DNA from: an uncultured Flavobacteriales bacterium
Lineage (GTDB): Bacteria; Bacteroidota; Bacteroidia; Flavobacteriales; BACL11
Length of the DNA: 48,472 nt
Assembly: GCA_905478185.1 (NCBI GenBank)
Contig: CAJQHO010000051.1
Location: 1-48,472 of the forward strand
Direction: 5' to 3'
The notes beneath the pieces are model-generated. The model saw only the letters and a list, made by a program, of their open reading frames with translations, was not told where the DNA came from and did not search any database. The position numbers and the translations under genes were made by a program. This document shows, one piece after another, positions 17,471 through 35,272 of this stretch. Each line of letters starts with the position of its first letter. The stretch's first letter is position 1.

Positions 17471-17593
17471 ATTTATGTATTGTTTATTGACGCAAATTAA
17501 CTGAATTTTTGAGAATAAAAACAGACTGTTTTAAGTAAAGAATTATTTATTAATTTTTTTTTGTCAAAATATTTTCTGATTAATTAAAAGTAA

Positions 17594-17601
17594 TATATTT
17601 G
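17594..17601 (+). promoter_or_regulatory. TAnnTTTG -7 box of the tRNA-Lys gene
   Basis: TATATTTG, an exact match, ends 15 bases before the mature 5' end of tRNA-Lys, a suitable distance for a short pre-tRNA leader. Confidence 0.65.
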
Positions 17602-17616
17602 CAGCCGATTTTGACC

Positions 17617-17689
17617 GACCTGGTAGCTCAGTTGGTAGAGCATCTCCCTTTTAAGGAGAGGGTCCTGGGTTCGAGCCCCAGCCAGGTCA
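17617..17689 (+). tRNA. tRNA-Lys (anticodon TTT)
   Basis: A 73-base cloverleaf. The acceptor stem GACCTGG pairs with CCAGGTC, the D-arm contains AGCTCAGTTGGTAGAGC, the anticodon arm TCTCC-CTTTTAA-GGAGA gives anticodon TTT, and the T-arm holds GGTTCGAGC. The discriminator is A; the CCA end is not encoded. It is followed by its own terminator. Confidence 0.97.
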
Positions 17690-17700
17690 CAAATTGAAAT

Positions 17701-17726
17701 AAATCCCGCATCAGCGGGATTTTTTT
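17701..17726 (+). terminator. Intrinsic terminator after tRNA-Lys
   Basis: A 9-bp stem (17701-17709 with 17714-17722) with ATCA loop and a following T-run. It separates the two tRNA genes. Confidence 0.9.
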
Positions 17727-17742
17727 ACTTTTGTAAACCTAA

Positions 17743-17825
17743 GCCCAGGTGCTGAAATTGGTAGACAGGCATGATTGAGGGTCATGTGTCCTAAGGACGT
17801 GCGGGTTCGACTCCCGCTCTGGGCA
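17743..17825 (+). tRNA. tRNA-Leu (anticodon GAG)
   Basis: An 83-base class II tRNA with a long variable arm. The acceptor stem GCCCAGG pairs with TCTGGGC (one G-T pair), the anticodon arm CATGA-TTGAGGG-TCATG gives anticodon GAG, the variable arm TGTCCTAAGGACG forms a stem, and the T-arm holds GGTTCGACTCC. The CCA end is not encoded. It starts 16 bases after the tRNA-Lys terminator, so it either has a promoter in that short gap or is read by readthrough. Confidence 0.95.
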
Positions 17826-17829
17826 CAAA

Positions 17830-17854
17830 AAAAAACGGGCTTATGCCCGTTTTC
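17830..17854. terminator. Bidirectional terminator between tRNA-Leu and hbd
   Basis: A perfect 9-bp stem (17832-17840 with 17845-17853), TTAT loop, with an A-run before and T-run after. It serves tRNA-Leu on the plus strand and the 3-hydroxybutyryl-CoA dehydrogenase gene on the minus strand. Confidence 0.85.
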
Positions 17855-17880
17855 TTATCAGAAATTGATTTGATGTCTTC

Positions 17881-31701: not shown

Positions 31702-33183
31702 ATGAAAAAAATATTTAAGATTTTTCTTATATTCCTTTTTTCAGGGTATTCTAATTTTATTTATTCTCAACTTACACCCTGCAATCTTACAGGAGGTAGT
31801 GTTTATGTTGATCATACTACTAGTCCTTGGATGATGAATGCAACTGTTAATGGAATGTCTCAATATAGTTATACATGGACAAATGGGGCAACAGCTAATC
31901 AAACTCCATTTTATTCTCAATGGTGTGTAAATATTTTAGATCTTATAAGTGGTTGTGATACGACTATTTGTCAAGATTGTATAGCAGATTCAACAGCAAT
32001 GTGTGGATGTAATATGATGTATATGCCTGTTTGTGGATGTGATGGAGTAATGTATCCAAATTCTTGTGTAGCTGATTGTGCAGATGTTCCATGGACTCCA
32101 GCGGTTCCTAGTGGAATTCCTGGTGGCTTTTTGCCATGTAATCAGCCTAGTTCTTGTGTAGATTCTTCTTTAATTGATTTGACAGCTATCTGTACTTTGA
32201 TATGGGATCCTGTTTGTGGTTGTGATAGTATTACATATTCTAATGATTGTCATGCGCTTAATTTTGGAGGAGTAACTTCTTGGACACAAGGACCTTGTAA
32301 TTTTACGACAAATTTTGCCTGTATGGGAGGGATAAATCCTGGAGTTACTTCATGTCAAGGTCCTGGAAATTATTCTTTAGGACAAACGTATGTTATGGCA
32401 GTTTATCCAACAATGGCAGCATGTATAGCTGATTCTTGTAATGTTATCCCACCACCTCCACCTCCTTGTGGGGTAGAACTTACTGGAGATTCTATTATTT
32501 GTAATTGGGGTAATCCTCAGATTCTTACTGCATCACCAAATTCATCAACAGTATTGCCTGTTACATATATGTGGAATACTGGGCAAACAGGACCTGTTTT
32601 AACAATTATTACCCCTGGAACTTATTGTGTAACTCAGATTGATGCTAATGGATGTATTGATACAGCATGTATTACTGTTACTGTGCAGGACATTCCAATT
32701 TATTCGGCACCATCACCACCAATCATTTGTTTGGGAGATTCTATTGTTTTAGAAATAGATACTATTGGACTTTCTAATATCATTTGGGTTCCTAATACCT
32801 TGATTACCCCACCTGTTCATAGGATTGTAGATTTCCCTATATTCACAACTACTTATGTTGTTGAAGCTGTGGATTCGGCCGGCTGTGATAGAAGAGGTGA
32901 AATAGAAGTTATTATAGACTCTTGTATAACAGGAATAATGCATATTATGTCAGCTCAAGTTTTAATTTACCCTAACCCTGCTAAAGGTAATTTGACAATT
33001 AGTATGCCAAAATTTGAAATTTTTGATTTAAGGATTTATGATATTATGGGAAGGTTAGTTTTATCAGAGGATACGATATCTCAAACCTTTATTATATCAG
33101 GCAATACTTTATCCAAGGGAAGTTACATTCTTCATTTAAGTCATGCTAAAGGAATAATAACTAAGAAGTTAATGATTGAGTAG
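31702..33183 (+). CDS. T9SS-exported protein with Kazal-like domains
   Basis: A 493-residue secreted protein with a signal peptide (about 1-22, ending IYSQ). Two Kazal-type modules are visible: MPVCGCDGVMYPNSC (about 112-126) and DPVCGCDSITYSNDC (about 170-184), the pattern of Cys-rich serine protease inhibitors. A proline run (PPPPPP, about 250) leads to two Ig/PKD-like beta domains (about 255-405, with TYMWNTGQTG and VVEAVDSAGC) and a canonical T9SS type A C-terminal domain (about 415-493: YPNPAKG, IYDIMGRLV, SKGSYILHL, KKLMIE). It may inhibit proteases at the cell surface; that is inferred from the modules. A TATATTTA box (31671-31678, one mismatch) lies upstream. Confidence 0.85.
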   Translation: MKKIFKIFLIFLFSGYSNFIYSQLTPCNLTGGSVYVDHTTSPWMMNATVNGMSQYSYTWTNGATANQTPFYSQWCVNILDLISGCDTTICQDCIADSTAMCGCNMMYMPVCGCDGVMYPNSCVADCADVPWTPAVPSGIPGGFLPCNQPSSCVDSSLIDLTAICTLIWDPVCGCDSITYSNDCHALNFGGVTSWTQGPCNFTTNFACMGGINPGVTSCQGPGNYSLGQTYVMAVYPTMAACIADSCNVIPPPPPPCGVELTGDSIICNWGNPQILTASPNSSTVLPVTYMWNTGQTGPVLTIITPGTYCVTQIDANGCIDTACITVTVQDIPIYSAPSPPIICLGDSIVLEIDTIGLSNIIWVPNTLITPPVHRIVDFPIFTTTYVVEAVDSAGCDRRGEIEVIIDSCITGIMHIMSAQVLIYPNPAKGNLTISMPKFEIFDLRIYDIMGRLVLSEDTISQTFIISGNTLSKGSYILHLSHAKGIITKKLMIE

Positions 33184-33427: not shown

Positions 33428-33874
33428 TTATTCTTCTGCAGATTCTAAATTCTGAAACTCATAATTAAAATCAAATATTTTCCATTCTAATTGATCATTC
33501 TGTTTAAGCAGTATACTCTCAGTATGGTTTTTAGTTTTTGAATATTCTACATTATATTCAACAATTACATAAAACCCAGACCCATAGCCCTCAATTTCAC
33601 TATTAAAATAAGTGTCGGACACCGATCTTTCTTCTAGTTGACCAAACTCATCCATCAATATTGAGATTTGATTCAACCAACTCTCTTCCGAGAATCTTTT
33701 CTTTAACTCAGAAGAAAGATATTGATAAGATGTTGAATATTGTCCTGAGTTTACATCATTCCACCATTGCAAACCAACTTTATTAGCATCAGTTATATAT
33801 TTTGTAGTATATTTTTGAGCTGAAAGATTATTAAAAGAAAATAGTGCTAATAAAAGAATACTTAGATGTTTCAT
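33428..33874 (-). CDS. DUF4019-like secreted protein
   Basis: A 148-residue protein with signal peptide (1-19, ending LSAQ). The body (about 30-140) begins with GLQWWNDVNSGQYSTSYQYLSSELK, has a middle SWLNQI segment and a closing 'WKIFDF' strand, the plan of DUF4019 domains, a cystatin/NTF2-like fold in the periplasm. Function unknown. The start is followed upstream by the 448-base intergenic region; the gene's 3' end abuts the small membrane protein gene. Confidence 0.72.
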   Translation of the reverse strand: MKHLSILLLALFSFNNLSAQKYTTKYITDANKVGLQWWNDVNSGQYSTSYQYLSSELKKRFSEESWLNQISILMDEFGQLEERSVSDTYFNSEIEGYGSGFYVIVEYNVEYSKTKNHTESILLKQNDQLEWKIFDFNYEFQNLESAEE

Positions 33875-34050
33875 AGTGAATTTTTTTAAGATTGTAAAAG
33901 TAGTTGTTTTAATAAGAAATTTTAAAATTTTCCCAGATGATTTTTTCTTAATTCGCTATTTTTAAGAAGATATAATTAAAATTAACTTCCATTTTTGACC
34001 TTATTTTCTTCTTTTTTGTTGTTTTTGAAGTCAAAGTTATTAACCAATCT

Positions 34051-34249
34051 TTATCTAGTGTTTTTTTGTCCTTATCTAGTAAAGTTGCAATTGTCATAAT
34101 TTAAGCAATATCACCATAATACACTGAAAATAAGGCAGTTGAAAAAACATTATATTTGATGTAAGTATTACAGTTTTTAGATTGAAAAAACTTATTTTCT
34201 TTAAGTTAATTTTTGACTTATGAACAATAAAACAAAATTCTTATCTAGT
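34051..34249 (+). repeat. Three direct copies of TTATCTAGT
   Basis: Copies at 34051-34059, 34072-34080 and 34241-34249; the last two share the longer CTTATCTAGTAAA. The first two are 21 bases apart, about two helical turns. A degenerate copy, TTATCTAT, is at 34273-34280. They could be binding sites for a regulator or RNA-level signals. Confidence 0.6.
34151..34158 (+). promoter_or_regulatory. TAnnTTTG -7 box upstream of the 66-aa gene
   Basis: TATATTTG, an exact match. If used, the 66-aa gene would have a leader of about 160 bases carrying the third TTATCTAGT copy; otherwise it may drive a separate small RNA. Confidence 0.45.
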
Positions 34250-34322
34250 AAAATTTAGTTTGTAAGGATTTTTTATCTATATTAGTCCCTGTAAAAATAA
34301 TATTAACCAAAAAAAATAAATC

Positions 34323-34523
34323 ATGGCTTTTACGCACACAAACGAAAGAGGTACTTTATACCACTTAAACAAAAAAGATGTAACATTAAAATCAACTGGT
34401 AGAGTTCAGACTATCTATTATTTCTCAAAAGATTCAAGAGATACTGCTTCTGACAAACCAGATGGTTACTTTGTTAAGGAAAATTCAAGAACTGGATTAC
34501 CATTCTTAACTAAGAAGAAATAA
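34323..34523 (+). CDS. Conserved 66-aa protein of unknown function
   Basis: A 66-residue soluble basic protein starting MAFTHTNERGTLYHL, with TIYYFSKDSRDTASDKP and ending NSRTGLPFLTKKK. This pattern is familiar from small conserved bacterial proteins annotated as hypothetical; a distant similarity to YegP/DUF1508-type beta folds (KTIYFF-like strand) is possible but not certain. It is well insulated: long leader region upstream and a very strong terminator 20 bases downstream, suggesting a monocistronic, possibly highly expressed gene. Confidence 0.8.
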   Translation: MAFTHTNERGTLYHLNKKDVTLKSTGRVQTIYYFSKDSRDTASDKPDGYFVKENSRTGLPFLTKKK

Positions 34524-34542
34524 TTTTAAGTTTTCTTAAAAG

Positions 34543-34574
34543 AAAAGCCCTAACATTTGTTAGGGCTTTTTTTT
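34543..34574 (+). terminator. Strong intrinsic terminator
   Basis: A perfect 12-bp stem (34543-34554 with 34559-34570), ATTT loop and a T-run to 34574. It ends the 66-aa gene and, by its flanking A-run, may also end the convergent zinc peptidase gene. Confidence 0.93.
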
Positions 34575-34594
34575 GTGCTTTGTTTTTTGTCTGA

Positions 34595-35272
34595 TTAATC
34601 TCTTAACATTGACACATAATAGAGTAAGTAGGTTACGGCAGCTAAAGCAGCAACTACATAAGTGCTAGCAGCCCATCTAAGTGCATCATCAGCATATCCT
34701 AATTCTTTATCACTTGTAATTCCTGATGATCGTAACCAAACTAAAGCTCTTCTGCTGGCATCAAATTCAACTGGAAGTGTAATTAGTGTAAATGCAGTAA
34801 CAATTGCTTGCAGTATGATAAATAGCATTATTAGCTGATTAAATCCAAGCCCAATATAGCTACCACCTATTAGTCCTATAATGAAAACGGTACTCATCAT
34901 TTTATTGCTATAATTTACCACAGGAACCATTTGTGATCTCATTTGTAACCATTGATAAGCAGTAGCGTGTTGTACTGCATGTCCGCACTCATGAGCTGCA
35001 ATTGCAGCAGCTGTTACGTGCCTTCCTTGATAAACTTCAGGACTTAGATTTACAGTCCTATCCATAGGATTGTAATGATCAGTAAGTTTTCCTGGAACTG
35101 AAATTACTTTTACATCATTTATTCCATTATCACTTAACATTCTTTCAGCAATTTCTTTTCCACTCATGCCTGATACGGTTGGTACTTGGCTGTATTTTTT
35201 AACTTTACTTTTTAATCTTGAACTTACAATCCCTCCTACAATCATAAACCCTATCATTATTACCCAAATCAT
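34595..35272 (-). CDS. Membrane zinc metallopeptidase (YugP/Zn_peptidase_2 family)
   Basis: A 225-residue integral membrane protein. An N-terminal helix (about 1-17) is followed by a cytoplasmic part with SGKEIAERMLSDNG, the zinc-binding HECGHAVQH (HExxH-type in the form HECGH, residues 94-98) and at least three hydrophobic helices in the C-terminal half (about 115-165 and 200-220). This is the plan of YugP-like predicted Zn proteases. Substrates are unknown. It has an exact -7 box 22 bases upstream and diverges from surE. Confidence 0.9.
   Translation of the reverse strand: MIWVIMIGFMIVGGIVSSRLKSKVKKYSQVPTVSGMSGKEIAERMLSDNGINDVKVISVPGKLTDHYNPMDRTVNLSPEVYQGRHVTAAAIAAHECGHAVQHATAYQWLQMRSQMVPVVNYSNKMMSTVFIIGLIGGSYIGLGFNQLIMLFIILQAIVTAFTLITLPVEFDASRRALVWLRSSGITSDKELGYADDALRWAASTYVVAALAAVTYLLYYVSMLRD

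Follow-up and report, generated by a model that had tools for sequence, protein, structure and literature searches.

What purpose does a long non-coding gap serve ahead of a very small gene? Within the window, by which we mean the entire 48,472-nucleotide stretch of DNA analysed here, from an uncultured Flavobacteriales bacterium, 448 bases (33875-34322; G+C 21%) separate a divergent 148-aa ORF (33428-33874, - strand) from a 66-aa ORF (34323-34523, + strand). This is the longest of the 32 gaps between the chosen main ORFs, the next ones measuring 410 and 266 bases, and the impression that it stands out in the window was thus borne out; the second longest lies at 17471-17880. Non-coding DNA is scarce in streamlined marine genomes, and an array of 250 bp that is fixed across a dozen genera would mark a gene worth precise control. 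We consider it likely that the gap is a dedicated multi-operator, enhancer-like transcription-control region of the 66-aa gene, about 250 bp in length and with one probable sigma-A promoter.

The locus had drawn attention through a repeated 9-mer, TTATCTAGT, and the sequence-only reading described it correctly: exact copies are found on the + strand at 34051, 34072 and 34241, the first two at a spacing of 21 bases, and the extended word CTTATCTAGTAAA is common to the last two. Three copies exceed chance: dinucleotide shuffling of the leader, repeated 20,000 times, never yielded TTATCTAGT three times, and three copies of any 9-mer containing all four bases arose in 13 of 20,000. A further near copy is present at 34272 (TTATCTATATTAGT) and overlaps what we read as the real -7 box. 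The near-perfect terminator attributed to the 66-aa gene was confirmed (Table 1).

Taken as a word, the 9-mer says little about the rest of the genome. It occurs 34 times in 1.66 Mb, compared with 16 occurrences of a mirrored control word, and apart from the three leader copies, 28 of the other 31 sites fall inside ORFs and three count as intergenic according to a crude ORF caller. A regulon marked by exact TTATCTAGT was rejected, given that 28 of the 31 off-leader sites are in ORFs. Spread of the 9-mer through the genome and a lack of conservation among relatives had been named in advance as speaking against a special role of the region; the former was found, in that the 9-mer is thinly spread and mostly coding, whereas the region is conserved in relatives. 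Of two bipartite patterns tried on the own genome, TATCTAGT-N16-40-TATNTTAG matched twice, once at the leader (mirror control, one match), and TTATTAACA-N6-24-TCTAGT did not match, because the own anchor is TTATGAACA.

The 66-aa gene itself turned up in 11 of the 14 genus genomes, in 40 of the 52 family genomes and in 32 of 148 genomes sampled from the order. When the whole leader was used as a DNA query, 11 of 14 genus genomes matched (the own included); the matches run the full length in the two closest relatives alone and elsewhere cover mainly the last 83-135 bases. Conservation of the leader becomes visible when it is read by motif rather than by alignment, as a fixed layout is shared by the sequences compared. 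Counted from the ATG, it comprises a distal module at about -285 to -245, made up of TTATTAAC and then two boxes of the TTATCTAGT type some 22 bp apart; a TGATWWTCA-like block follows at about -200 and a proximal module (TTATTAACA, TTATCTAGT) at about -105 to -75, ahead of a -7-like TATATTAG (Table 1). The comparison across relatives that had been proposed thus revealed a conserved leader with a family-wide footprint of sites, which supports the earlier suggestion of a regulated promoter with several operator copies.

Table 1. Features of the 66-aa gene and its leader (positions in the window)
Feature	Position	Strand	Remark
DA, TTATTAAC distal anchor	34037..34044	+	predicted -253..-246 from inferred TSS
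d1, first distal TTATCTAGT box	34051..34059	+	TTAYCTAGT type in relatives
d2, second distal TTATCTAGT box	34072..34080	+	21 bp after d1
C, central block CTGAAAATAAG	34124..34134	.	degenerate here; TGATWWTCA-like palindrome in relatives
A, TTATGAACA proximal anchor	34218..34226	+	TTATTAACA in most relatives
B, proximal TTATCTAGT box	34241..34249	+	predicted -49..-41 from inferred TSS
TATATTAG, probable non-consensus sigma-A -7 box	34278..34285	+	putative TSS near 34290
A-rich 5′ UTR end	34301..34322	+	conserved; probably translation context
Intrinsic terminator	34539..34574	+	16 pairs, loop 4, T run

The individual sites were scored in 37 leaders, three short ones having been dropped. DA matched fully (8/8) in 35 of the 37 when the best-scoring position in a 59-base range was used. 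Box d1 mostly follows DA by 12-14 bp in relatives, and d2 follows d1 by usually 21-23 bp, mostly 22; both boxes reached at least 7 of 9 letters in 28 of the 37, spanning 12 genera, although the match in one of these 28 (G028) is out of place and doubtful. Block C gave a mean best score of 8.92 out of 11, against a shuffle mean of 7.49 and a shuffle maximum of 7.76 over 300 rounds, and is degenerate in the own clade. The A anchor was complete (8/8) in 34 of 37 leaders and reached 7/8 in the own clade (G000, G007 and G008). Box B, located at -69 to -83 from the ATG, was compared in 35 loci: 20 have exact TATCTAGT, five TCTAGT or TCTAGG and five, from genera g6 and g15, the inverted form ACTAGA; it is absent in four loci of genus g5, where CTAG boxes are lost or altered, and one leader was too short. 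These motifs are concentrated in the leaders, as TATCTAGT occurs 43 times in 32 of them (2.99 per kb) and TTATTAACA 27 times, versus no occurrence of either in the flanks. A logo of 26 rows, with those of g5, g13, g15 and g6 left out, shows a CTAG core of about 2 bits per column and a spacer mostly below 1 bit.

The array appears to have one target per genome. The distal pattern TTATTAACN{4,14}CTAGTN{12,22}CTAGT matched a single time in each of 18 family genomes out of 52, and the coordinates place all 18 matches directly upstream of the small gene, with no match to the mirrored pattern; GTTATTAACN{4,12}CCTAGTN{12,22}CTAG was found in 8 of 52, again once in each. The looser TTATTAACN{9,18}ATCTAGT gave 25 matches family-wide, 17 at the small gene and eight elsewhere, and the latter are at chance level because the mirror control gave 12. 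Pattern searches of the 52 family genomes thus yielded no other target of the distal array. Such a lack of further targets is odd for a general regulator and counts against the explanation that we favour, as do the degenerate block C of the own clade and the lost or altered CTAG boxes of genus g5.

As to the promoter, the box TATATTAG at 34278 lines up across most leaders and is probably the sigma-A -7 box of the 66-aa gene; at this position (-40 to -49 from the ATG), TATATT is found in 32 of 37 leaders, TAAATT in four and TATCTT in one. The flavobacterial sigma-A -7 consensus is given as TAHHTTTG in the available text of PMC6847099, and TATATTAG fits five of its six near-invariant positions. 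Like the promoters covered in the available text of PMC6847099 and PMC9723704, the leader box has TA at -12/-11, TT at -8/-7 and G at -5; unlike them, it carries A instead of T at -6 in most leaders. The exact -7 box noted earlier at 34151 is present (TATATTTG), but an exact box stands there in only one of 32 leaders, and one close relative has a variant. Downstream, the A-rich end of the 5′ UTR is read as translation context because G023 has a similar TATTAACC...ATG context ahead of its tandem paralogue, where the 140-base leader lacks the boxes. It also agrees with the A-rich start contexts that the available text of PMC6847099 describes for Flavobacterium johnsoniae.

How might such a region work? 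One protein species, or two, would recognise TTATCTAGT, with TTATTAAC(A) and the TGATWWTCA block probably being further sites. If transcription starts near 34290, box B would lie at -49..-41, where an activator would touch RNA polymerase at a promoter with a non-consensus -7 box, A at about -70, C at about -160 and the distal module at -253..-210. Boxes d1 and d2, about 170 bp upstream, would probably strengthen control via a wrapped or looped complex. What the comparison establishes is the sites with their positions and conservation, their restriction to one target and their tolerance of inversion; protein binding, a start near 34290, control by activation and not by repression, and a looped or wrapped complex are all suppositions of this model. 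Multi-operator promoters with distant sites are a known kind, familiar from gal, lac and ara of E. coli. The leader resembles these in having repeated sites at the promoter and roughly 100-200 bp upstream; it differs in the sites themselves and in having one target gene. Judged from the genomes compared, the region is real, conserved and gene-specific.

The spacing of the sites adds a geometric aspect. Distances from d2 to C cluster near 42, 52 and 63 and those from C to A near 94, 104 and 115, i.e. in steps of about whole helical turns, and genus medians are phased at period 10.5 (d2-C, p 0.0003; C-A, p 0.0009). On a weakly resolved tree of 29 loci, 23 and 28 of which entered the spacing counts (G006 was left out as its C match looked out of register), the whole-turn steps go back to few events, at least 3 + 3 changes, which weakens the case for phasing. 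The direct d2-B spacing is phased only when all related rows are counted (p 0.005) and shows no phasing by genus (p 0.41 and 0.82 at period 10.5; 0.36 in a separate test). Assembly of the sites on the same face is therefore a suggestive rather than a firm feature. A bolder version, namely a bacterial enhancer-like array of six sites of three kinds on one helix face, conserved in the family, tolerant of inversion of single boxes, dedicated to one tiny gene per genome and possibly read by the 66-aa protein itself, strikes us as improbable. Should the phased array or autoregulation prove true, the significance of the locus would rise.

Direct repeats 21-22 bp apart made a LytTR regulator an attractive candidate. 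LytTR-regulated promoters, according to the available text of PMC6193735, have direct repeats about 12 bp apart (11-13 bp) just upstream of the promoter, and the leader has this type of spacing, with the TTATCTAGT 9-mers at 34051/34072 being 21 bp apart and leaving a 12-bp spacer. In contrast to the systems in that text, G000 and most of the array-carrying genomes give no LytTR match. The candidate was rejected because a protein search that did give matches in control genomes matched only 4 of 52 family genomes and none in G000.

One alternative assigns the distal module to the divergent gene, so that the gap would hold two ordinary divergent promoters sharing one regulator. We regard this as a serious rival because, where the upstream neighbour could be called, it is the DUF4019 gene in 34 of 35 loci and divergent in all 34, and the two modules have both motifs in common. 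We nevertheless hold it to be unlikely: in most leaders, DA lies 267-297 bases from the small-gene ATG, whereas the distance from the module to the DUF4019 ATG varies far more (121-193 in most, 276 in L164), the small gene is duplicated in tandem in G023, with the extra copy sitting between module and DUF4019, and a separate promoter-like signal can be seen by eye about 30 bases from the DUF4019 start. On these distances, the distal module stays with the small gene and so would serve it. A structured RNA, be it a riboswitch, an attenuator or a small RNA, would likewise account for a long intergenic gap preceding the small gene, and an unrecognised small RNA or leader element had been suggested for this stretch. 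The sites are better read as protein sites on DNA, because boxes are inverted (box B in 5 of 35 loci), no Rfam family exceeds its gathering score and no covarying structure was detected over 16 aligned leaders (four consensus pairs); nor does the leader fold unusually (z-score -1.2). Inverted boxes come naturally to a protein site and are hard to reconcile with an RNA element, and hence argue for the former, leaving a structured RNA very unlikely. Rfam gave some weak rows around 34440-34635; these fall short of gathering scores and stem mostly from the terminator.

Two further readings concern who binds. The 66-aa protein could be its own DNA-binding factor and the array an autoregulatory operator, as might be expected from one target per genome, from a basic protein (net charge +6, pI 9.8) and from an all-beta AlphaFold2 model (pLDDT 88) whose top, though weak, Foldseek matches are ssDNA-binding proteins. 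Yet the best Foldseek E-value is 0.14, the best VIA-align hit (Z 2.6) is to an unrelated enzyme, and none of the Saccharibacteria and Patescibacteria relatives listed has the array ahead of its homologue; we judge autoregulation improbable. A replication element (oriC, terminus or DnaA-titrating site) would fit a single-copy, AT-rich locus with a DnaA-box-like TTATCAACA in some relatives, the array anchor differing by one or two bases from TTATCCACA, which we take to be the DnaA box. Against it, the array adjoins a gene that has a promoter and a terminator of its own, and in G010, the relative used for GC skew (19 of 20 sampled stretches readable), the locus at 516 kb lies inside a positive-skew arm, with the sign changing between stretches at 700 and 770 kb. 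An origin or terminus was rejected since the G010 locus is not at the skew switch, and a replication element of any kind seems extremely unlikely to us.

A multi-operator control region, our preferred reading, makes box DNA usable as bait, a handle for finding the regulator of the small gene, and directs attention to a widespread protein family of 64-74 aa. Members are common to Flavobacteriales, Saccharibacteria, other Patescibacteria, a Planctomycetales MAG and a Kazan genome, and in a family search of a named collection, at least 547 of at least 588 pattern stretches encode relatives, of which the best 80 were kept. The 66-aa protein matched no Pfam model at cut-off and nothing in NCBIfam, PHROGs or PADLOC, and solved-structure and fold searches returned nothing significant; Pfam PV_NSP1 (21.1 bits versus a cut-off of 25; 2 of 41 relatives matching) was taken as chance. 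In the literature, no flavobacterial work on TTATCTAGT and nothing relevant on footprinting in flavobacteria appeared among the matches listed, and nothing linked DUF4019 with Bacteroidetes.

Several minor observations accompany the locus. The conserved DUF4019 gene at 33428-33874 has a signal-peptide-like start and a weak PADLOC match to Csx23 (E 0.0015) that is probably due to chance, and the 493-aa product of 31702-33183 combines a Kazal-type inhibitor domain with a sorting tail for type IX secretion. In L159 (G023), the tandem paralogue without a box array lies, relative to the gene start, at about -700 to -502, and G020 has a second small-gene copy with an internal TAG. L226 (G010, about 638-640 kb) has three same-strand TTATCAACA within about 2.1 kb in similar surroundings, perhaps a repetitive gene. 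Finally, in a second family of the order (f9), TCTAGT is found near -72 in three of the six leaders fetched.
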